Shown here piece by piece: positions 10,774 through 21,489 of a stretch of 64,000 nucleotides of DNA. The position numbers and the translations under genes were made by a program. The stretch covers positions 62,001 to 126,000 of the forward strand of contig NZ_JADRCR010000003.1 of the NCBI RefSeq assembly GCF_016649425.1, written 5' to 3'. Source of the stretch: Limnobaculum allomyrinae (GTDB lineage: Bacteria; Pseudomonadota; Gammaproteobacteria; Enterobacterales; Enterobacteriaceae). The notes beneath the pieces are model-generated. The model had not been told where the DNA came from, ran no database searches, and saw nothing but the letters and a program-made list of their open reading frames with translations. Each line of letters begins with the position of its first letter. Position 1 is the first letter of the stretch.

Positions 10774-11154
10774 ATGATGACTACTGTTAAAGGTTTTTTA
10801 CTGCCCATTTGTGTCAGTACAACCATGTTTGCACTTTCTGGTTGCTCCAGCCTGATGGCTCACGTGGCGCCTTATGAACGGTATTATCCGGGCACTGCTC
10901 ATGATATTGATATGATTGGTGACGACAATCATGGATGGCTGATGCGCAGCCTGTTGATTGTCGATCTGCCCTTCTCTGCGATGTTAGATACCGTTTTGCT
11001 GCCTTATGACCTCTATCGTGCCAGCGATACCGAAGGGCGATCTTCGCCACGAAAAACGATTTCAGATTCAGATAAAGAGAAGCAAAACAAAGGACTGATG
11101 AAGGGTTCTGGCTATACGCCACCCCCACAAGAAAAATCTAGCGATAAGAAGTAA
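10774..11154 (+). CDS. yidQ: DUF1375-family lipoprotein YidQ
   Basis: 126-residue lipoprotein with signal peptide and lipobox LSGC (Cys about residue 24). The body carries the DUF1375 pattern seen in E. coli YidQ and YceK: the YYPGT motif, MIGDD, then DLPFSAMLDTVLLPYDLYR. The C-terminal tail is Lys/Ser-rich and probably disordered. It is divergent from ibpA exactly as E. coli yidQ is. The function is unknown; envelope location is inferred from the lipobox. The 3' end overlaps the converging lacI-family gene by 17 bp. Confidence 0.9.
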   Translation: MMTTVKGFLLPICVSTTMFALSGCSSLMAHVAPYERYYPGTAHDIDMIGDDNHGWLMRSLLIVDLPFSAMLDTVLLPYDLYRASDTEGRSSPRKTISDSDKEKQNKGLMKGSGYTPPPQEKSSDKK

Positions 11155-12145
11155 TACGGGCAATCAATTCTGCATCAGCAACAAAAAGCTGACTATCGGT
11201 TAAACCGTCGATCTTTTGACGCATCATTTCACAAGCCTGCCCCACTAGCGTCTTTTCGTCCTGCCTCATCGACCAGATATTATTGGGCAAAAAGCTCAGC
11301 ATGACGTGTTCGTCGAAGGTACCAATATTAATCCGGCTGGGGATATAGCCATAGCGCTCACGTAATACGCTTAGCCCTCCTTCCAGAATCGGTAATGAAG
11401 AGGAGATAAAGTTCACCGGAAACTCACCGTGCTGTTCAATAAACTGATTCATCATCAGCTCACCATCTTCAACCCGGTTATGGTCAGCATAAGAGAGCAG
11501 CGATTTCTCCTGAGAAAAACCTGACTCATCGCTGGCTCTGACATACCCTTTCAAACGTTCAGCAATAGTAGGCAGCCCGGCATCACCCACAAAGAAATGA
11601 ATAGGCTGTTGAATTTTATCCAACATGGCACGAGTCAGGCGATAACCACTTTTACAGTTATCGGTAATAACACAGGACGCCCCTTTAATACCAAAATCCC
11701 GATCGAGAAAAATCAGCGGTTTATTGCGGTGTTTAACGTGATGAGCCTGACTTTTGGCATCAACTGAAACAATAAAAATACCGTCTACATTGCGTTCTTC
11801 CAGCGATTTCACCAGTTTGTTTTCATATTTGGGGTCGCCATAAGTACAACAGATCATTAATTGATAGCCAGCTTCCCGGCAGCGAATTTCCAGTAACTCC
11901 GCCAGTGCAGAAAAGAAGGGGTTTGATAAACGCGGAATGACTAAACCGAAAGTTTCAGTCTTGTTCAGTTTAAGGCTACGTGCAGTATGGTTAACGGTAT
12001 AGCCATGTAATTCAACATATTGAGCTATTTTTTCCTGCGTTTTTACGCTGATGCGATACTGTTCAGCCTTACCATTCAATACTAAACGAACCGTAGTAAT
12101 GGATAAGTTTAAATCATTCGCAATCTGCTCTACCGTTTTAGCCAT
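11138..12145 (-). CDS. LacI-family transcriptional regulator
   Basis: 335 residues. The N-terminal LacI helix-turn-helix (about residues 3-50: TVEQIANDLNLSITTVRLVL) and hinge (ARSLKLNKTETFG) are followed by a periplasmic-binding-protein-like effector domain (about 60-330) with FGLVIPRLSNPFFS and the NVDGIFIVSV segment. It is downstream of, and on the same strand as, the seven-gene operon 12252-20550, separated by 106 bp containing a long inverted repeat. It is the obvious candidate local repressor, with an intermediate of that pathway as likely inducer (inference). Its last 17 bp overlap yidQ on the other strand. Confidence 0.92.
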   Translation of the reverse strand: MAKTVEQIANDLNLSITTVRLVLNGKAEQYRISVKTQEKIAQYVELHGYTVNHTARSLKLNKTETFGLVIPRLSNPFFSALAELLEIRCREAGYQLMICCTYGDPKYENKLVKSLEERNVDGIFIVSVDAKSQAHHVKHRNKPLIFLDRDFGIKGASCVITDNCKSGYRLTRAMLDKIQQPIHFFVGDAGLPTIAERLKGYVRASDESGFSQEKSLLSYADHNRVEDGELMMNQFIEQHGEFPVNFISSSLPILEGGLSVLRERYGYIPSRINIGTFDEHVMLSFLPNNIWSMRQDEKTLVGQACEMMRQKIDGLTDSQLFVADAELIARITSYR

Positions 12146-12251: not shown

Positions 12252-13760
12252 TTATCCCCGACGAACTTTCATCAGTGATTTGATTTTAGGTCCAAATACA
12301 GGCAAAAGTAATGTTAGTACTGCAATAGCCAAAAATGTTGCGCATATCGGACGAGTCAGTAACACCATCGGATCGCCTTCCGACATCATCAGTGCCCGAC
12401 GCAGGTTAGATTCTGCCATTGGGCCAAGAATAATACCAATGACGATTGGCGACATAGAAAAATCCAGCTTAATCAAAATATAAGCTAAGAATCCAGCGCC
12501 CATCATAACGAATACATCGGTCATACTGTGGTTAACCGAGTAGGCACCCACAGAACACAGCATCAGAATAATCGGCACCAGCACGCGGCGCGGAATATCC
12601 ATCACTTTAGCGAACAGGCGCATGCCCATAAAACCCATGATGCCCATAAATACGTTGGCAGCAAATAAACCGATAAAGATGGAATTTACTTCAACCGGAT
12701 GATCGGTAAATAGCTGAGGGCCTAACGCCAGCCCCTGCACCATAAAAGCTCCCATAATGATGGCTGTCGCCCCATCGCCAGGAATACCCAGCGTCATTAA
12801 TGGAACCATCGCACCCCCCGCTACCGAGTTAGCACCAGCCTCCGGAGCAGATACCCCTTCAGGAGAACCATGGCCAAACTCTTCCGGATGCTTAGACCAG
12901 CGTTTTGCTTCGTTATAAGCGATAAAAGAAGCGATATCACCACCCACACCAGGCACTGCGCCAATGCCGGTACCAATGACCGAAGAACGAACATAGGTAG
13001 GTAACACACGTTTAAAATCGAGCCAGGTTGGTAAGATACGCGTGATATTAGCCCGAATAATCTTTACCTGTCCGGCAATACGCTCACGGTAATCCTCTTC
13101 AAAACTTAGCAATCCCTGAGAAAAAGCAAACAGCCCAACCAGCACCGGTATAAACGAAACGCCACCCATTAAGTAGATAGAGTCAAAAGTAAAACGCATT
13201 CCACTGGTCATCGGATCCAGGCCAATGGTGGCAATAAACAAACCAATTCCACCACCAATCAATCCTTTAATAATCGAGTTAGATGACACGCTGGTGATAA
13301 TACTGATACCAAATACCGCCAGAGCAAAATACTCTGCCGCAGAGAAACCGGTGGCTACTTTTGCCAGCAGAGGTGCAATCAGCACTAATGCGATGGTACT
13401 AAACAGGCCGCCAAACATGGAGCCCATGGTAGATAATCCCAGCGCCCGACCAGCTTCCCCTTTTTTAGCCATAGGGTATCCATCCAGCACGGTCGCAGCG
13501 GAAGCAGGCGTACCCGGCGTACTAATCAAAATAGCCGTAATTGAGCCGCCATATACCGCACCACAATAGACCCCCAACAGTAAAAGGATCCCGGTCATAC
13601 CCTGAAAGGAATAGGTCAGCGGCAGCAGTAAAGCGATGCCCATGTTGACGGTTAATCCCGGCAGCGCACCGATAATAATGCCGGCCAACACCCCCAACAG
13701 AATCATTGATACCGTTTCAAGGCTGAATACGATAAACAGGGCTTCTAAAACTTCATTCAT
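12252..13760 (-). CDS. Tripartite tricarboxylate transporter large membrane subunit (TctA family)
   Basis: 502-residue integral membrane protein of about 12 helices and the main permease subunit of a TTT-family, binding-protein-dependent carboxylate transporter. TctA hallmarks include GALPGLTVNMGIALLLPLT near residue 35 and TPGTPASAATVLDGYPMAKK near residue 85, plus the paired motif GIPGDGATAIIMGAF around residue 340. The standard length is about 500. Last gene of the operon, 18 bp after the TctB gene. Together with TctB and TctC it would import an organic acid; the substrate is unknown but should feed the isomerase/kinase/aldolase encoded upstream. Confidence 0.93.
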   Translation of the reverse strand: MNEVLEALFIVFSLETVSMILLGVLAGIIIGALPGLTVNMGIALLLPLTYSFQGMTGILLLLGVYCGAVYGGSITAILISTPGTPASAATVLDGYPMAKKGEAGRALGLSTMGSMFGGLFSTIALVLIAPLLAKVATGFSAAEYFALAVFGISIITSVSSNSIIKGLIGGGIGLFIATIGLDPMTSGMRFTFDSIYLMGGVSFIPVLVGLFAFSQGLLSFEEDYRERIAGQVKIIRANITRILPTWLDFKRVLPTYVRSSVIGTGIGAVPGVGGDIASFIAYNEAKRWSKHPEEFGHGSPEGVSAPEAGANSVAGGAMVPLMTLGIPGDGATAIIMGAFMVQGLALGPQLFTDHPVEVNSIFIGLFAANVFMGIMGFMGMRLFAKVMDIPRRVLVPIILMLCSVGAYSVNHSMTDVFVMMGAGFLAYILIKLDFSMSPIVIGIILGPMAESNLRRALMMSEGDPMVLLTRPICATFLAIAVLTLLLPVFGPKIKSLMKVRRG

Positions 13761-13778
13761 AGCGATCCCTTTATCCTT

Positions 13779-14240
13779 TTATTCTAAGAATTCAGATACA
13801 GGCAGAGGGGAATTAAAAATCAGGGTGAATGAGACATAGATAGTGGCCACAATCACCACTGAAATCAGCGCTAAAAACCACGCCCGTCGCTCACCCATCA
13901 TCCACATCACCACCGGGCTTAACAGCAGCGAAGCCACAATAAAACCGGTATAGTTAAGCAATACGCCATACAGCACCATTACGATCGCCAGTACATAGGC
14001 TCTACGCACCGGCAGAGAGGTCAGATCAACCGAAACACCGGCAGTTTTTGCACGCTGAACGGCCACTTCAATCCACTGTAAAACGCCTAATCCAATAAAT
14101 AACCAGGCCAGACCATAGGGCCAGAAACGCTCTCCGGGCACGCCGTATTGATCAAACATGCTCATATCCCGGGAGAGATACATAATTACGCCCCCCAGAA
14201 GAACCGAGAGTAAACCGACAAGAATATTCAATTTCCGCAT
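13779..14240 (-). CDS. Tripartite tricarboxylate transporter small membrane subunit (TctB family)
   Basis: 153-residue membrane protein with four predicted helices: LNILVGLLSVLLGGVIMYL at the N-terminus, then PYGLAWLFIGLGVLQWI, YVLAIVMVLYGVLLNYTGFIVA and FLALISVVIVATIYVSF. The size and hydrophobic pattern are those of TctB. It sits between TctC and TctA as in other TTT operons. GGAGGGAG precedes the ATG and is partly inside a UUCG-loop hairpin (14253-14276), which may lower its translation relative to TctC. Confidence 0.88.
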   Translation of the reverse strand: MRKLNILVGLLSVLLGGVIMYLSRDMSMFDQYGVPGERFWPYGLAWLFIGLGVLQWIEVAVQRAKTAGVSVDLTSLPVRRAYVLAIVMVLYGVLLNYTGFIVASLLLSPVVMWMMGERRAWFLALISVVIVATIYVSFTLIFNSPLPVSEFLE

Positions 14241-14252
14241 GACATCGTCTCC

Positions 14253-14276
14253 CTCCTGCCGGCGAACCGACAGGAG
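14253..14276 (-). promoter_or_regulatory. Intercistronic UUCG-tetraloop hairpin (tctC-tctB)
   Basis: In minus-strand RNA, CUCCUGUCGG pairs with CCGGCAGGAG around UUCG (one G-U pair). It lies directly after the binding-protein gene, and its 3' arm runs into the tctB Shine-Dalgarno. Such hairpins often protect the upstream message and set the high binding-protein to permease ratio. Confidence 0.55.
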
Positions 14277-14286
14277 ATACCTCTAT

Positions 14287-15258
14287 TTATTTTTTCATGG
14301 TTTCGTCTATCAGCGTTTTATACATCTCATCATCTTCTTTCATCATGTTGTAAGCATCATCACCGGCAATCACTACTGGCATAATGCCCTGTTTCTTCAA
14401 CGCTTCCTGATAGGCCGGTGTTTTCACTACTTCAGTAAAAGTATCCACCAGTTCTTGTTTCACGTTATCCGGTACTTTAGCGGTCGTTGCCAGCACCGCC
14501 CAGGCGCGCATTTTGACGTTAACATCCAGACCTAACGCCTCTTTAAAGGTCGGTACATCCGGGAACAGTTCAAAACGTTTTTCGTCCATCACACCCAGCA
14601 CTTTCAGAATACCGGCATCAACCTGAGATTTTACCGAGCCCGGCGTAGTTAATACTGAATCGATGTGACCACCCACTAACGCAGCAATAGAGGGGCCGGT
14701 GCCTTCGTTATAAGGAATATGGTTAAACTTCACATCCATAGTTTTTTCCATATTCACCGCCGCCAAATGGTAAATCGCCCCCATACCGGAGTTACCCACT
14801 TTTAACTTACCCGGATTGGCTTTTGCTGCATCAATAAACTCTTGCAGCGTGTTATAAGGCGATTTGGCATTGACCACCACCGCAACCGGATCGGCAATCG
14901 TTGTCACTAACGGCGTAAAATCTTTATAAGTCACCGGTGATTTGCCTTGATGTGGGAACATCGCCAGTTCAACGGTGGTCATCACCAGCTTATAGCCATC
15001 TGGCTTAGCTTTTGCCACTTCAATCAGCCCGGTCAGGCCGTTACCGGCGGGCTTATTCACCGGAACAAACATGGTTCCTTTAGGCATACGGTCACGGGCA
15101 AACTCAATCACGGTACGGGCTGAAGTATCAGTACCACCACCAGGATTTTTAGGAATAACCACTTCAATGTTCTTGGTAGGGTAAGTTAGCGTTTGCTCCG
15201 CCTGAACCATCCCGAAGGGCAGCATTAGCGCGAGCAGAGGAAGCAGATTTTTTTTCAT
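14287..15258 (-). CDS. TTT-family periplasmic solute-binding protein (TctC/Bug family)
   Basis: 323 residues. A Sec signal peptide (residues 1-20, cleavage after MVQA) is followed by a Bug/TctC fold with VVIPKNPGGGTDTSAR near residue 35 and PDGYKLVMTT and NSGMGAIYHLAA further on. It captures a carboxylate in the periplasm for the TctAB permease. Its start codon overlaps the stop of the sialidase-fold gene (ATGA), so the two are coupled. The ligand is unknown; Bug proteins most often bind acids through their carboxylate. Confidence 0.93.
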   Translation of the reverse strand: MKKNLLPLLALMLPFGMVQAEQTLTYPTKNIEVVIPKNPGGGTDTSARTVIEFARDRMPKGTMFVPVNKPAGNGLTGLIEVAKAKPDGYKLVMTTVELAMFPHQGKSPVTYKDFTPLVTTIADPVAVVVNAKSPYNTLQEFIDAAKANPGKLKVGNSGMGAIYHLAAVNMEKTMDVKFNHIPYNEGTGPSIAALVGGHIDSVLTTPGSVKSQVDAGILKVLGVMDEKRFELFPDVPTFKEALGLDVNVKMRAWAVLATTAKVPDNVKQELVDTFTEVVKTPAYQEALKKQGIMPVVIAGDDAYNMMKEDDEMYKTLIDETMKK

Positions 15259-16325
15259 GAGGGCACTCCATTATTATCATTATCAGACGTTATTTTTTGG
15301 TACACGATGTTCTTACGATTCCATGTGTAGGTCACATGGAGTGTTTCACCATTGGCGATAATCGCCGGGTAGGAAAATTCTCCTTCACCATTTTCCAGAT
15401 CTAACGGAATCGACCAGGTTTTGCCGTTATCCTGCGATACATTGATTGATATGGGATAGCGACGATTCCAGTTGCCTTCGATAGGGTTATAAGCCAGCAC
15501 CAGACTGCCATTTCCCAGTCTTACTACATCAATACCACTGTTATTATTTGGCAGTTCTGTTTCATAGGCCGGACACCAGCTACGGCCATAATCCATTGAA
15601 TCACTGCGGTAAATGCGCCCACGGGAACTGCGCATCATGGCATGTACCAGGCCGGGAGCGGACTCCCATAACGTTGGCTGAATCACGCCATCCCATTCAA
15701 ATACGCGTTGCAGATCGGTTTCCCACAGCGCGTCATCTTTTAAACCTTGCCAAATATCACGCTCATTTGCAGATACCGGATGAATATGAGCAATCGGGAT
15801 GTCCACGCGCTGCCAGCATTCACCCAAATCGGCGGAGATATCAACAAAAGCATCCCAGTAGCGATCGTTCTCGATAGAGGAAGGAGCCAGCCACTCACCA
15901 TTGGACATCACCAACAGCTTGTTTTTAACCGGGCCACGAGGCAGCGGGTCTCCTGGCACTAACTCCTGAGGTTGACTCCAGCTATAACCACCGTCTCCGG
16001 ATGTAACATAGCGGGTTATCCAGTGATGTACATCCGGCCCCACTTTATAGAACAACCATAGCGTGCCGCACTGGTAGTGCAAAACCGGATTCCAGTGTGC
16101 CAGACCATCCTGAGCAATGGCTCTTTGAGCCGGCTGCCATTCGCCTCTGACGCAACGAGATAGCCAAATTGCCGTATCACCGCTGGCCTCTTTTTGTCCG
16201 GCAAAGTAGGCTACCAGCAGTTGATCGCTGTCTGGTAGCACCACTAATGTTGATGCATGACAGTTATTAAAAAGCTGATGATTCACATCCAGTAAAAACT
16301 GCGAAGATTGCTTAATAAAATGCAT
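15255..16325 (-). CDS. Sialidase-fold (BNR/Asp-box) protein, probable glycan-acid hydrolase or lyase
   Basis: 356 residues without a signal peptide or membrane segment, so probably cytoplasmic. Four Asp-box motifs (S-x-D-x-G-x-x-W) are visible: SGDGGYSW, SADLGECW, SMDYGRSW and SQDNGKTW, marking a six-bladed sialidase-type propeller (BNR_2-like). The C-terminal LHVTYTWNRKNIVYQKI is typical of exo-acting members. Relatives include sialidases and other glycoside-processing enzymes, so the reaction cannot be fixed. Its place between an aldolase and a sugar-acid transporter suggests that it frees or converts the imported compound inside the cell. True sialic-acid catabolism genes (nanK, nanE, nagB) are absent here. 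Confidence 0.8.
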   Translation of the reverse strand: MHFIKQSSQFLLDVNHQLFNNCHASTLVVLPDSDQLLVAYFAGQKEASGDTAIWLSRCVRGEWQPAQRAIAQDGLAHWNPVLHYQCGTLWLFYKVGPDVHHWITRYVTSGDGGYSWSQPQELVPGDPLPRGPVKNKLLVMSNGEWLAPSSIENDRYWDAFVDISADLGECWQRVDIPIAHIHPVSANERDIWQGLKDDALWETDLQRVFEWDGVIQPTLWESAPGLVHAMMRSSRGRIYRSDSMDYGRSWCPAYETELPNNNSGIDVVRLGNGSLVLAYNPIEGNWNRRYPISINVSQDNGKTWSIPLDLENGEGEFSYPAIIANGETLHVTYTWNRKNIVYQKITSDNDNNGVPS

Positions 16326-16339
16326 CTTATGATTTTTCC

Positions 16340-17266
16340 TTATAGCTCTAAATAACCGCGAATATCCTGTCCCAACCGCACCATGCCATTAATGGCCTCC
16401 GGATAGAATGTTTGCAGATATCCACTGCTATCCCGCACCCGGCAGGCAATAGTATGGAAATTTCCAATGGATTGTTGAAAATTTTTCGCACAAACCGGGT
16501 AATCCAGATTCTCAACTAATGCTGCGGTAGAGAGATAATCAGATAACTTGCGAGCCTTTTCCGGCTCGGCCTGCCAATTCTCATACAGCCAGACATACAG
16601 GTCAGGATGAAAGTTAGCCATAACACCGCTAAAGGCCTGACACCCCGCCTGAAAAGAGGCCAGCAGCGTTTGGCTATTGGCATTCGCCAGATGTAGGCGG
16701 CTGCCTTTGGCCAGTTCAAGGCGACGTTTAATCATGGTCAAATCGCAGCAGGTATCCTTAATGAAGGTGTAACGACCACTTTGAGCACACCAGGCCACCG
16801 TCTCTTCCGACAGCAGGCGTTTATATGGGTAAGGGCATTCATAAATTCCCAGATCTACCGATACCGGCACCTGAGCGGTTAAACGCTGTAAGGTTTCCAG
16901 TGCCTTATCGTTGCTTTCGCCCGCCAGCGCCAGACGGTTGCTGATCATTATCACCCCATCAACACCGGTTTCAGACATACTGATTAGCTGTTCACTCTGA
17001 TGGCTAAATGCATTTGCCGTATGACCGGATGCCACGACAGGTAGCCGACCATCAACTTTTTCTACGATAAAACGCACCAGTTTTCTGGCTTCTTCGTCGC
17101 TTAAAAAGAACATTTCACTCGACTGACAATCGGCAAATAACCCGTGAACACCGGCAGCCAGATACCACTCAATCAGCTTTTCCAGTGACGGCCAGTCGAT
17201 CTCTTTACGTTCATCAAAGGGCGTTAGCATCACAGGCCAAACGCCGCTATATTTTTGTTGGTTCAC
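16340..17266 (-). CDS. DHDPS/NanA-family aldolase
   Basis: 308-residue TIM-barrel enzyme of the dihydrodipicolinate synthase/N-acetylneuraminate lyase family, which acts on 2-keto acids through a Schiff base. The Schiff-base Lys170 is in YTFIKDTCCD and the general-base Tyr142 in GIYECPYPY. The usual GTTGE substrate motif is replaced by CQSSE (residues 47-51), pointing to an unusual substrate. The start is taken as GTG 17264-17266, with AGGA 8-9 nt upstream and one nucleotide after the isomerase stop; a longer ATG frame (17299) would overlap the isomerase by 32 bp. Probably cleaves the 2-keto or ketose product made by the upstream enzymes (inference). Confidence 0.87.
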   Translation of the reverse strand: MNQQKYSGVWPVMLTPFDERKEIDWPSLEKLIEWYLAAGVHGLFADCQSSEMFFLSDEEARKLVRFIVEKVDGRLPVVASGHTANAFSHQSEQLISMSETGVDGVIMISNRLALAGESNDKALETLQRLTAQVPVSVDLGIYECPYPYKRLLSEETVAWCAQSGRYTFIKDTCCDLTMIKRRLELAKGSRLHLANANSQTLLASFQAGCQAFSGVMANFHPDLYVWLYENWQAEPEKARKLSDYLSTAALVENLDYPVCAKNFQQSIGNFHTIACRVRDSSGYLQTFYPEAINGMVRLGQDIRGYLEL

Positions 17267-17267
17267 G

Positions 17268-18926
17268 TTATGCTTCCTTTTGAAGCGCATGCAGTGCATC
17301 GCCCGCTACTTTTACCTGAATCCCCTGAGTCAGCGCCTGAGCGACAAACGCCCGCAGTACGCTGTTCAGCTTAGCCTGCTCCACATAAGCAATCGTGATA
17401 TGGTTACTTTGATGCCCTGACATCAAGTCATCACGCTGAACGCCATCCAGTACACAGTTGAGCAGCGGCCATTCATAGTTAGTCGCCCGGCGGCGGCGTT
17501 CAAACTCGTCTTCGGGTAATTCAACTGCATGACCGGAACCAATATGCATCACCACATTGGTTCCTTCATAGTGGGCTCGAGCCCAGACAAAGCGCCCGGC
17601 TTTACCCTGCCCGCAAATAGTTGAACCACCATAAGGGAAAAACATAGGCGGTTGACGATATCCTGTTGCACCCGCAATACCACCTTTCAGATGCTCAAAC
17701 GGCACCGCTCCGGAGATCTCCATATCCCAATAGAAAGTACCCCGATATTCACTGCCCCAACGAATATCATGTAATGTCGTTTCCGCCGGCAGCCCTAATG
17801 AACTCAGCAAACGCCATAACATGGTTTGGGGAATAGCCGTTCCCATATCCACTTCATTAATGCAGGGGATGGCCTGATTTGGGCAGATGATCTCGCCTTG
17901 CTCATCCGGAATAGGAAAACGCTCGGTGGAACCAATGGCACCTTCAGCAAAATCTGAAGCGGCGCAGCTATCCTTCAACCCCTGCTGATACTGAACCCCT
18001 ACCGCCGATAAACCAAAACGTTTTACAAAGCGCGCCATGGCAATCATCATGGCACACTGCTCTTTGACCTGATCGCGAGTTAGCTCAATGGCGCTATCCT
18101 CACCAAACTGGAATTTCATACCGCGCTCTTCATACCAGTTCAGACAGGTTTCCCTTAGCTCATCGGGCACTTTCGCCATTTCAACCAGCAAAGCAGACTG
18201 TGACAGCGACTCCAGCGGCATGCCTATATTCACTAACGCTTGCTGAGGAAATACGCCGTTAATCATCCCCATACAGAAAGTATCGAATAATCCCAAAATC
18301 TCTTTATGCTGCAAAATATATTCGCCGACTTTGCGACCCACGGCACCCTCCGGGGTCGCCATTACCGGATGTGTCGGCGCCACATCATGCAAATAATTAT
18401 TCTTATGTTGCAATGAGCCATAACGCAGCCAGGTCTGCAAACCCTGCATAAAGAACTCATCATCAAAGCTCTCTGACCATAAACGGGAATAGGGTTTATC
18501 CAGACTGGTTAAGGTTCCTGCCAGACAAAGCATGCCCACTAACCCCGGGCAGGTACCGTCAAAATTCGCCAGCAACAGGACAGGGCCACGATGGTGAGCT
18601 AACGATGGAGCGATATGGTGTGAATACTGCCAGGCAGTTAACAGCACAATCACTGGCGCATCCGGTTCAATAGCGGCAAACAAATCACTGCCTTCACGCT
18701 GGCTACTGATAAAACCATGTCCACGACTTTGACTCACCGGATGAGCTCGCTTCATGGAGTAACCCAGCTGTTCCAAAGCCCGCTCCAGCTTGTCTTCAAA
18801 TTTTTTCTGTATTGGCCAACAGGTAACGTTTGCCGGCTCACGTAAATCCGCGTTAGTGACCATCAATACCTGCTTACTTTTCGCCCCTATTTTCGCCGGT
18901 GACGGTGGCAGATTAAGTTTTAACAC
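17268..18926 (-). CDS. L-fucose/L-arabinose isomerase-superfamily protein
   Basis: 552 residues with a start at GTG 18924-18926, preceded by CAGGA at 8 nt; the frame is open further upstream but overlaps the kinase gene. The length and the segments VLLLANFDGTCPGLVGMLCLAG, MGMINGVFPQQALVNIGMP and HIGSGHAVELPEDEFE fit the FucI/AraA-like superfamily, which interconverts aldoses and ketoses using a Mn2+ site built from Glu, Asp and His. EVDMGTAIPQTMLWRLL is the likely metal-ligand region. It is not close enough to FucI or AraA to assign a sugar. It lies 25 bp after the FGGY kinase, giving the classic isomerase-kinase pair for a sugar, polyol or deoxysugar. Confidence 0.82.
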   Translation of the reverse strand: MLKLNLPPSPAKIGAKSKQVLMVTNADLREPANVTCWPIQKKFEDKLERALEQLGYSMKRAHPVSQSRGHGFISSQREGSDLFAAIEPDAPVIVLLTAWQYSHHIAPSLAHHRGPVLLLANFDGTCPGLVGMLCLAGTLTSLDKPYSRLWSESFDDEFFMQGLQTWLRYGSLQHKNNYLHDVAPTHPVMATPEGAVGRKVGEYILQHKEILGLFDTFCMGMINGVFPQQALVNIGMPLESLSQSALLVEMAKVPDELRETCLNWYEERGMKFQFGEDSAIELTRDQVKEQCAMMIAMARFVKRFGLSAVGVQYQQGLKDSCAASDFAEGAIGSTERFPIPDEQGEIICPNQAIPCINEVDMGTAIPQTMLWRLLSSLGLPAETTLHDIRWGSEYRGTFYWDMEISGAVPFEHLKGGIAGATGYRQPPMFFPYGGSTICGQGKAGRFVWARAHYEGTNVVMHIGSGHAVELPEDEFERRRRATNYEWPLLNCVLDGVQRDDLMSGHQSNHITIAYVEQAKLNSVLRAFVAQALTQGIQVKVAGDALHALQKEA

Positions 18927-18951
18927 GTTGATTTTCCTGTTCTGATAAATT

Positions 18952-20550
18952 TTACGCTGACAATTCGGCATTACTCATCATCTGGTGATAACGCTGCTGA
19001 TCCTGATACATCTGTAAATAAACCTGATACTTAGCCTGATGGAATGAAGCGGTTGAATCATCGGGCTGAATGCTGTTTCCATATCGAACCATTGCTCCGG
19101 CCGCCTGAGAAAAGTCAGAAAAGGCATCGCATGCTACGGCACCCAGTAAAGCAGCACCCAGCGTGACTGCATCCTCTTCTTTAGCCAGATGGATCGTGCG
19201 TTGAGTCGCATTGGCATACTCTCTGAGCCAAAGCGGATTTTTAGTCGCACCGCCGCATAAAATCAGGCGCTCAATCTGATGGCCTGACTCTTCCAGTACG
19301 TCGATAATATGGCGAGTACCATAGGCAATAGCCTGTAGGGTGGCTAAATAGCGGCGGGCCAGTGCATCCAGCCCCGTCTCCAGCGACAGACCCGACTCCA
19401 TCCCTTTCGCATCAGGATTAGCGCGGGGAGAACGATTGCCGTGGTGATCTGCCAGAATATGTAGATGATAAGTAGGAAACGGATGCTGCTGTTCGAGTTG
19501 AGCAACCCGCTGATTCAGAATTTGGTAGTAGCTGCACTGCTGACGCTGAGCTATCGCTTCCAGTTCAGGCCAGGCATCGCTCTGGCGTAGTGTCCACTCA
19601 ACCAGAGCACCAGCAGCACTTTGCCCACCTTCATTCAGCCACCAATCAGGGATCATGGCGCTAAAGTAAGGCCCCCACACGCCGGGTACCATCACCGCCT
19701 GAGGACTGACGACCATATGACAATTAGAAGTACCGCTGATAATGGCCAAACTGGCTTGTGGATGTGCCGCAACCAAAGCCAGACCACCGGCATGGGCATC
19801 AATAATTCCACTGGCGATAACGACATTGGTATTCAACCCAAACTGACGGGCAGCTTCCGGGCAGAGCATACCCGCCTTTTCACCCAAATTTAAAACTGTA
19901 GCGGGTACTTTATCGGTTAATTCTGTCAGCCCTACGGCATCCAACAGGCTGTGGCTAAAGCGTCCTTCATGAGAAAGGTAGTTCCATTTACAGCTTAGGG
20001 TGCAAATACTGGCTGCATCAGCCGCGCTGGCTCGCCAGACCAGATAATCAGCTAAATCAAAAAAGCGCCATACCTGCTGATAGCGCTGTGGATAATGCCT
20101 TTTTAACCAAAGAATTTTGGGTAATTCCATCTCAACGCTGACTTCACCACCAACATATTGCAACGCAGGATCATTGGTCAGATTAATCTCCATGGCTTCA
20201 TCAATGGCTCGGTGATCCATCCACATGATGATATCCCGCTCAGCCTCACCATTTTCAGCAACCGAAACGGGTGAGCCATCCGTTGCAACCGCAACTAAAG
20301 AGCAGGTGGCATCAAAGCCAATGGAGCAAATGGAATCAATATCAACCCGGGAGAGTTCAACGGCCTCTTTTACCACCGCACACACTTGCTGCCAGATATC
20401 CGCAGATGACTGCTCAACTACATTCGCTCGGGGGTGAAATTGCTGAATAGCCCGAACTGAAAATGCCAGGCGTTCCCCTTGTGAGGTAAAAATACCAGCC
20501 CTGACACTGGCAGATCCTACATCAACCCCGATAAAAAACTGATGCTCCAC
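18952..20550 (-). CDS. FGGY-family carbohydrate kinase (ribulokinase-like)
   Basis: 532 residues with start GTG 20548-20550, right after GGAGG (20555-20559). FGGY fold: N-terminal phosphate loop FFIGVDVGSASVRAGIFTSQ, GFDATCSLVAVATDG, MWMDHRAIDEA (catalytic Asp region), and the C-terminal adenosine motif LILCGGATKNPLW with GAALLGAVA. The arrangement is closest to the ribulokinase/D-ribulokinase branch. It should phosphorylate a ketose with ATP. First gene of the operon that continues with isomerase, aldolase, sialidase-fold protein and the TTT transporter. The substrate is unknown. Confidence 0.88.
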   Translation of the reverse strand: MEHQFFIGVDVGSASVRAGIFTSQGERLAFSVRAIQQFHPRANVVEQSSADIWQQVCAVVKEAVELSRVDIDSICSIGFDATCSLVAVATDGSPVSVAENGEAERDIIMWMDHRAIDEAMEINLTNDPALQYVGGEVSVEMELPKILWLKRHYPQRYQQVWRFFDLADYLVWRASAADAASICTLSCKWNYLSHEGRFSHSLLDAVGLTELTDKVPATVLNLGEKAGMLCPEAARQFGLNTNVVIASGIIDAHAGGLALVAAHPQASLAIISGTSNCHMVVSPQAVMVPGVWGPYFSAMIPDWWLNEGGQSAAGALVEWTLRQSDAWPELEAIAQRQQCSYYQILNQRVAQLEQQHPFPTYHLHILADHHGNRSPRANPDAKGMESGLSLETGLDALARRYLATLQAIAYGTRHIIDVLEESGHQIERLILCGGATKNPLWLREYANATQRTIHLAKEEDAVTLGAALLGAVACDAFSDFSQAAGAMVRYGNSIQPDDSTASFHQAKYQVYLQMYQDQQRYHQMMSNAELSA

Positions 20551-20721
20551 AATGCCTCCAAACTCAATGCTGCGTCGAGTTAGCAACTCATGAAAGCGCG
20601 GAGCAAAAAACAATCAAATTGTTTAAATTATGTGATATCGATCGAAATGAAGAAGATAACCAACTGAATTGAAATAGATAATTTTTTGAGCAATTTGGCA
20701 GGAGAAAATCCAATAATCCAG
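20551..20721. promoter_or_regulatory. Probable promoter region of the catabolic operon
   Basis: AT-rich spacer upstream of the FGGY kinase. It contains TGTGATATCGATCGAAAT (20631-20648), with a CRP-like TGTGA half-site only, and short AT-rich dyads around 20610-20630 that could bind the LacI-family regulator. No complete promoter can be called with confidence. Confidence 0.3.
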
Positions 20722-20766: not shown

Positions 20767-21489
20767 TTAGTCTTTCAGAACTTCACGAGCATTGATTGGC
20801 TGAACCGGACGGTTGTTTGGGTGTCCCATCAGCGCAGTAAACGCCTGAATTTGTTCATGGCTGGCAGTGATCTGATTTTTCAGCACTAACCAACGAACCC
20901 CTTCAGTACAAGGAGGTGTAGTCAGAGAACCGCTAAAGCGATAGTAGTGCAAGTTAGCTGGCAGTAAATCTTTGGCATTGATCTTTTGATCATAGGTCAC
21001 CGTTTCACCCGTCTTAGGCATCTCTTTCCACAGTTTAGCCAGCGTTGGGTTAGCTTTACCCTCTTTCACCATAACGGCTAACACTGTCAGTTCACCCTTA
21101 CTGTTAGCATGAACAAAGTGAATCTCCATAGGGAAAGATTTACCTTCGATTTGGTTTTCACCCGGGGTATGGAAATGGAACTGTTTCAGTTCAAATGGCA
21201 TACCATCGACATCAATTTTGCTACCTGCGGCATAATTGACTTGTAATGTATGGCCATTATTCACCATATTTTCTGCGCCCGCAGCATAAGTAATATGGAA
21301 AGGCTTCAGATCGGATTTAACGGTACCGGTCAGGTTAACCGGTGACTGATTTTGAGCGTGGCAGGCAGCAAATTCTGGTGCTAATTCAGCCCAATGTTCC
21401 GGCCCTGCTTCGCCGCTATATTCCCAATGAGGGGATGCAAGCGCACTAAAAGACAATGCCAGACCACAAACGGCGATAAACGTTTTCAC
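20767..21489 (-). CDS. cah: Periplasmic alpha-class carbonic anhydrase
   Basis: 240 residues. A signal peptide (residues 1-18, cleaved after SALA) indicates export to the periplasm. Zn2+-dependent CO2 hydration: the three histidine ligands are in QFHFHTPGEN and EIHFVHANSKGE, followed by the conserved SLTTPPCTEGVRWLVL block. Two cysteines (in FAACHAQNQSPVNL and PPCTEG) are placed as the usual structural disulfide. A single-gene unit with its own hairpin. In E. coli it does not occur between yidQ and yidR (from memory). Confidence 0.94.
   Translation of the reverse strand: MKTFIAVCGLALSFSALASPHWEYSGEAGPEHWAELAPEFAACHAQNQSPVNLTGTVKSDLKPFHITYAAGAENMVNNGHTLQVNYAAGSKIDVDGMPFELKQFHFHTPGENQIEGKSFPMEIHFVHANSKGELTVLAVMVKEGKANPTLAKLWKEMPKTGETVTYDQKINAKDLLPANLHYYRFSGSLTTPPCTEGVRWLVLKNQITASHEQIQAFTALMGHPNNRPVQPINAREVLKD

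Follow-up and report, generated by a model that had tools for sequence, protein, structure and literature searches.

A window of 64,000 nucleotides on contig NZ_JADRCR010000003.1 of Limnobaculum allomyrinae, whose positions are used for all coordinates here, contains seven head-to-tail genes and an adjacent gene for a LacI-family regulator. All eight genes are intact open reading frames on the minus strand, between positions 11138 and 20550 (Table 1). In the order of transcription, they encode a kinase, an isomerase, an aldolase of the dihydrodipicolinate synthase (DHDPS) family, a sialidase-fold protein (BNR), the transporter subunits TctC, TctB, and TctA, and LacI. The gaps within the operon range from −4 to +46 bp, and 106 bp separate the TctA gene from the LacI gene. 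The starts of the kinase, isomerase, and aldolase genes, all GTG, were chosen by homolog support. The three Tct genes are contiguous, and each product scores above its Pfam cut-off, so that the tripartite tricarboxylate transporter (TTT) is complete. An initial annotation of the window had described the same gene families and a coherent sugar-acid operon with a carboxylate-type transporter, and our data bear out both points. We consider it probable that the operon serves to take up Kdo (3-deoxy-D-manno-octulosonate), or a small glycoside of Kdo, and to channel it into the pentose phosphate pathway. Kdo is an acidic sugar with eight carbons that occurs in the outer membranes of bacteria and in the pectin of plants.

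Table 1. Genes and putative regulatory sites of the operon, in window positions.
Feature	Position	Strand	Remarks
FGGY pentulose kinase, predicted D-ribulokinase	18952..20550	-	GTG start at 20550; TIGR01315
FucI/AraA-fold isomerase, predicted D-arabinose isomerase	17268..18926	-	GTG start at 18926; AlphaFold2 model
DHDPS-superfamily aldolase, predicted Kdo aldolase	16340..17266	-	GTG start at 17266; Pfam PF00701, 71 bits
Sialidase-fold protein, predicted cytoplasmic Kdo glycosidase	15255..16325	-	BNR_2, 230 bits; AlphaFold2 model
TctC, substrate-binding protein of TTT transporter	14287..15258	-	Pfam PF03401, 172 bits; signal-like N-terminus
TctB, small membrane subunit	13779..14240	-	Pfam PF07331, 59 bits
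TctA, large membrane subunit	12252..13760	-	Pfam PF01970, 516 bits
LacI-family regulator, last same-strand gene	11138..12145	-	Peripla_BP_1, 67 bits; full-length LacI-family models; syntenic in relatives
Operator-like palindrome TGCTAACTCGACGCAGCA (consensus TGCTAACTCGAGTTAGCA)	20568..20585	-	Upstream of kinase start; conserved in relatives
Possible CRP-like site around GATCGATATCACA	20625..20648	-	TCACA judged by eye, unscored

The genes are conserved together in other genomes. We searched named genome contigs with a BNR profile and examined the 80 best loci, a set that was selected by similarity to the sialidase-fold protein rather than drawn from random genomes and in which related genomes are over-represented. 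The full order from the kinase gene to the TctA gene is present in 20 of the 80 loci, and therefore the arrangement is not due to chance. Its carriers belong to Budvicia (where the sialidase-fold protein is 80% identical to that of the window), Leminorella, Proteus species, Klebsiella, Atlantibacter, Cedecea, Serratia, Symbiopectobacterium, Brenneria, and, in two cases, Rhodoferax. The isomerase, aldolase, and sialidase-fold genes occur in this order in 25 loci, and the latter two genes are neighbors in 47 loci across Gamma-, Beta-, and Alphaproteobacteria and Bacillota. The genome-neighborhood search proposed in the initial annotation thus came out in favor of a conserved system. The operon is nonetheless patchy, because the isomerase was found only in the window's own genome among 369 sampled genomes of the class and in 5 of 395 sampled genomes of the order. 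The type of transporter also varies. Most loci have a TTT transporter, but a major facilitator superfamily (MFS)-type carrier replaces it in a Klebsiella plasmid and probably also in another genus of the order (loci L018 and L019). Polaromonas has a TRAP-like set near the BNR gene, as judged from translated N-termini, and Paenibacillus loci have ABC-type transporter genes.

Lys170, Tyr142, and the QSSE motif of the aldolase are invariant in 15 homologs and supply the Schiff-base lysine, the tyrosine, and the carboxylate-binding Ser/Thr pair of the superfamily. Because of this invariance, the enzyme should, from its sequence, act through a Schiff base on an unphosphorylated 2-keto-3-deoxy acid. 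Given that such a lyase should act on an unphosphorylated substrate, the aldolase step is likely to precede those of the isomerase and kinase. The initial annotation had the opposite order, in which an imported aldose is isomerized, phosphorylated, and only then cleaved. All three enzyme classes are present, but we rejected this order as very improbable. Lyases of the DHDPS family use 2-keto acids via a Schiff base, the residues for which are retained here, and an aldolase for a phosphorylated ketose would belong to another family. Moreover, in Vibrio (L064) and Martelella mediterranea (L057), the aldolase, sialidase-fold, and TTT genes lie together in an operon without the isomerase and kinase genes beside them.

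A sialidase fold and an aldolase related to N-acetylneuraminate lyase (NAL) would also fit the catabolism of sialic acid or 2-keto-3-deoxynononate (KDN), in which the aldolase produces N-acetylmannosamine or mannose from the nonulosonate that a sialidase has freed. Against the curated NAL models, however, the window aldolase reaches 36.6 and 31.3 bits, far below their cut-offs of 281 and 382 bits. It has NANSQT at the site of NGFDE in NAL-like relatives, and the Asp-Glu pair of NAL binds the tail of sialic acid. The operon has neither NanK nor NanE, and its kinase is a pentulose kinase. We therefore rejected the sialic acid or KDN route, for which we see hardly any chance.

The kinase belongs to NCBIfam family TIGR01315 (542 bits versus a cut-off of 408.7), has the Pfam domains FGGY_N (92 bits) and FGGY_C (162 bits), and does not reach the cut-off of any model for L-ribulokinase, xylulokinase, or fuculokinase. 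It is 42% identical to the ribitol-operon kinase RbtK of Klebsiella, which itself scores 764 bits against TIGR01315 and whose gene adjoins a short-chain dehydrogenase/reductase (SDR) gene and an RbtT-type carrier. Because of the family membership and the similarity to RbtK, D-ribulose is the expected substrate of the window kinase. The kinases from loci of Consotaella and Martelella (L051 and L058) are 54 to 56% identical to RbtK.

Although a search of the PDB with the isomerase sequence returned no significant match, its AlphaFold2 model (mean predicted local distance difference test [pLDDT] of 88.4) places the protein in the FucI/AraA fold. The best structural matches of the model are FucI and D-arabinose isomerase (Z of 34 to 36.5 over ~340 residues), while L-arabinose isomerases (AraA) score lower (Z of ~30). 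His524 aligns with an Asn-His motif of the FucI family, in a non-significant match, and the invariant residues E343 and D375 are candidates for a possible Glu-Asp-His metal site. Besides acting on L-fucose, FucI interconverts D-arabinose and D-ribulose (PMC6894278). In Klebsiella and Escherichia coli records (L007, L008, and L009), the isomerase is labeled "signal transduction protein" or "hypothetical protein," which is probably a misannotation.

The clearest clue to the intermediate is a non-orthologous replacement in Paenibacillus. In P. alba (L081) and P. thalictri (L088), the gene order is BNR, DHDPS, true FucI, and ribulokinase, followed in P. alba by a YhcH-family gene. Against the FucI equivalog, the protein from P. 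alba reaches 1083 bits, and among PDB entries it matches the D-arabinose isomerase of Bacillus pallidus best (1025 bits). The Paenibacillus ribulokinase scores 750 bits against its equivalog and is not FucK. The pairing of FucI with a ribulokinase instead of FucK fits D-arabinose and not L-fucose. A FucI gene is also found in Vibrio sinensis, in an oppositely oriented cluster that adjoins the aldolase, TTT, and BNR genes. If a 2-keto-3-deoxy acid yields pyruvate and D-arabinose on cleavage, it is either Kdo or the epimer of Kdo at C4. In vitro, NAL enzymes of the DHDPS superfamily form Kdo from pyruvate and D-arabinose (PMC4016182), and a KDO aldolase activity that gives D-arabinose and pyruvate has been cited (PMC4412817).

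The AlphaFold2 model of the sialidase-fold protein (pLDDT of 91.9) matches glycoside hydrolase family 33 (GH33) sialidases with Z of ~35 over ~305 residues, and the six-bladed sialidase fold is evident from the comparison with 1w8o_A (VIA-align Z of 35.6, 305 residues, root mean square deviation of 2.3). Tyr319, Arg232, and Arg289 are invariant in 40 homologs, and the protein has no signal-like N-terminus. The simplest interpretation is that the protein is a cytoplasmic Kdo glycosidase. The initial annotation regarded an intracellular sialidase fold as an oddity, which disappears if the substrate is Kdo, a different ulosonic acid, rather than sialic acid. A Kdo hydrolase is listed among GH33 activities (PMC11214529).

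Relatives of the sialidase-fold protein, at 30 to 48% identity, are found in pectin-type loci. In Bacteroides finegoldii, the relative is fused to a GH78 alpha-L-rhamnosidase, with a GH140 gene adjacent. In Monoglobus pectinilyticus, it adjoins a GH106 rhamnosidase, and Clostridiaceae and Paenibacillus loci have the order DHDPS, BNR, and GH106 rhamnosidase. Other Paenibacillus have it beside GH95 and fucosidase-family genes. Chain C of the pectin rhamnogalacturonan II (RG-II) is a rhamnosyl-Kdo chain. Side chains C and D of RG-II carry Kdo and Dha (3-deoxy-D-lyxo-heptulosarate), and chain C ends in alpha-1,5-rhamnose (PMC12282258). The natural fusion of GH78 and the sialidase-fold domain in the Bacteroides locus with GH140 (L023:2226-6092) is a good candidate for a rhamnosyl-Kdo hydrolase. 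A Rhizobium plasmid (L027:6964-11566) encodes a DHDPS-family protein, a 28% identical sialidase-fold protein, an iron alcohol dehydrogenase, PdxA, and an acid-sugar kinase, and this set, with stereochemistry worked out by hand, fits a route from RG-II Dha via D-threonate to dihydroxyacetone phosphate.

Several observations weigh against the assignment of the operon to Kdo or its glycosides. The isomerase scores 29.0 bits against Pfam Fucose_iso_C, just short of the cut-off of 29.3, and shares only ~16% identity with FucI in the region that aligns. Cleavage of Kdo and of its C4 epimer would yield identical products. The same machinery could thus act on another C8 ulosonic acid that yields D-arabinose, either this epimer or a Kdo derivative with a modification that is processed elsewhere, since the isomerase and kinase indicate a D-arabinose product but leave the C4 configuration and the substituents unfixed. 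We judge such a substrate improbable: we know of no abundant natural C8 3-deoxy-ulosonate other than Kdo in lipopolysaccharide (LPS), capsules, and RG-II, and the rhamnosidase context of the sialidase-fold relatives fits Kdo.

Two residues of the sialidase-fold protein also depart from the expected ones, in 40 of 40 homologs each. His23 occupies the first position of the arginine triad (placed by motif, whereas the other positions come from alignments), and Gln216 occupies the position of the glutamate that partners the tyrosine. Canonical hydrolysis is therefore not assured. Because these two residues define GH33, we do not class the protein as a member of that family and describe it as working like a glycosidase. 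The two substitutions and the cytoplasmic location would suit a mutarotase, a lactonase, a transglycosylase, or an eliminating enzyme acting on Kdo within an otherwise correct route. We give this possibility real weight but find it unlikely, because relatives of the protein are fused to or lie beside rhamnosidases, as expected of a glycosidase, and because Tyr319, Arg232, and Arg289 are retained.

Finally, family searches of the window's genome detected no GH28, GH78, or GH106 genes. RG-II as the source of Kdo would therefore need other organisms, unless the source is a different one, such as LPS. The host likely scavenges Kdo compounds that other organisms free from LPS or from pectin, or it reuses Kdo compounds of its own.

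In the Kdo pathway that we propose, TctCBA would take up the carboxylate, and the cytoplasmic sialidase-fold enzyme would cut its ketosidic bond to free Kdo. The aldolase would then split Kdo into pyruvate and D-arabinose via its lysine Schiff base, the FucI-like isomerase would convert D-arabinose to D-ribulose, and the FGGY kinase would produce D-ribulose 5-phosphate. LacI would repress the operon from the palindrome upstream of the kinase gene until an intermediate, perhaps D-arabinose or D-ribulose, lifts the repression.

The palindrome TGCTAACTCGAGTTAGCA is found, with no more than four changes, before the first gene in loci of Enterobacterales, Rhodoferax, Martelella, Vibrio, and Telmatospirillum. 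In the whole genome, the window copy is the sole match without mismatches to a half-specified pattern, and sites with two mismatches occur at chance level. We infer that it is bound by the window LacI. The TCACA of the possible CRP-like site is kept upstream of the kinase gene in most relatives compared by eye. A scan for sigma-70 promoters found fewer sites than in shuffled sequences, and we claim no promoter.

A second type of operon (3 to 12 kb of L017, and L008 and L009) shares the operator, isomerase, kinase, and LacI with the window type. In its head, an enolase-family dehydratase, an SDR, a NAL-like aldolase, and GlcG replace the BNR and DHDPS proteins. One genus of the order has the two types in a single slot (L017 versus L018 and L019), whose flanks look like polA and gltX from translated N-termini. 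Because one operator precedes both types, they probably yield one inducer, and two heads on one tail with one type of regulator suggest one shared intermediate. We speculate that the second head reduces and dehydrates Ko, a 3-hydroxylated relative, to Kdo; this operon type could channel Ko or another sugar acid into the isomerase-kinase tail. Among 5426 E. coli genomes, 82 contain DNA related to the isomerase gene. In three alphaproteobacterial clusters (L011, L013, and L014), yet another head is combined with the same tail: an isomerase with 45% identity and a kinase of the TIGR01315 type occur with an SDR, RraA, TTT or amino-acid-type ABC transporters and, in two of the clusters, an HpcH-type aldolase.

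The proposed pathway resembles nan catabolism in having a sialidase-fold protein, an aldolase of the DHDPS superfamily for a 2-keto-3-deoxy acid, and a dedicated transporter, and some of its Bacillota versions carry a YhcH-family gene. It differs in the isomerase and pentulose kinase that stand in place of NanK and NanE, in an aldolase without the NAL motif, and in a sialidase-fold protein that lacks one arginine and the glutamate. Likewise, D-arabinose is catabolized elsewhere by L-fucose isomerase and the D-ribulokinase DarK (PMC12307932). That system shares the isomerization to D-ribulose and its phosphorylation, but D-arabinose is imported there, whereas in the window system it would be made inside the cell from a C8 acid, and the window isomerase is distant from FucI. 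RbtK shares the kinase family and the predicted reaction, but its D-ribulose is derived from ribitol via a dehydrogenase. GH33 sialidases and the Kdo hydrolase of RG-II degraders share the fold, the tyrosine, and two arginine positions; the window protein has the two substitutions, is cytoplasmic, and is paired with an aldolase. The predicted cleavage of Kdo into pyruvate and D-arabinose is the reaction of KDO aldolase (EC 4.1.2.23), which to our knowledge has been described as an activity without an assigned gene.

In the literature, which for the most part did not include subscription journals, we found neither a gene set for Kdo catabolism nor a gene for Kdo aldolase. This agrees with the initial annotation, which knew of no characterized pathway with these activities, and we found no close orthology to such a pathway. 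Ulosonic acid catabolism of the nan-like kind is known, and its Kdo variant is, as far as we can tell, new. Almost all Gram-negative outer membranes contain Kdo, as does plant RG-II. We tentatively suggest, at somewhat less than even confidence, that the operon represents the first Kdo catabolic pathway to be defined at the level of genes, and that Gram-negative and Gram-positive bacteria have it in common. It would combine a new clade of sialidase-fold Kdo glycosidases with an altered active site, a gene for Kdo aldolase, and a D-arabinose branch with a dedicated LacI. In place of its head, the same chromosomal site would alternatively carry a module of an SDR and an enolase-family dehydratase that could first turn Ko into Kdo. 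If the Kdo assignment is right, the operon supplies genes for the Kdo aldolase step and a candidate for a new class of Kdo glycosidases useful for work on RG-II and LPS. It would also give a function to many proteins that are now labeled exo-alpha-sialidase, fucose isomerase, or signal transduction protein.

A gene for an alpha-type carbonic anhydrase (20767-21489) lies immediately upstream, on the strand of the operon. Among the records compared, the 4.1-Mb Proteus record NZ_OL790812.1 (L010) is labeled a plasmid and is probably a chromosome.

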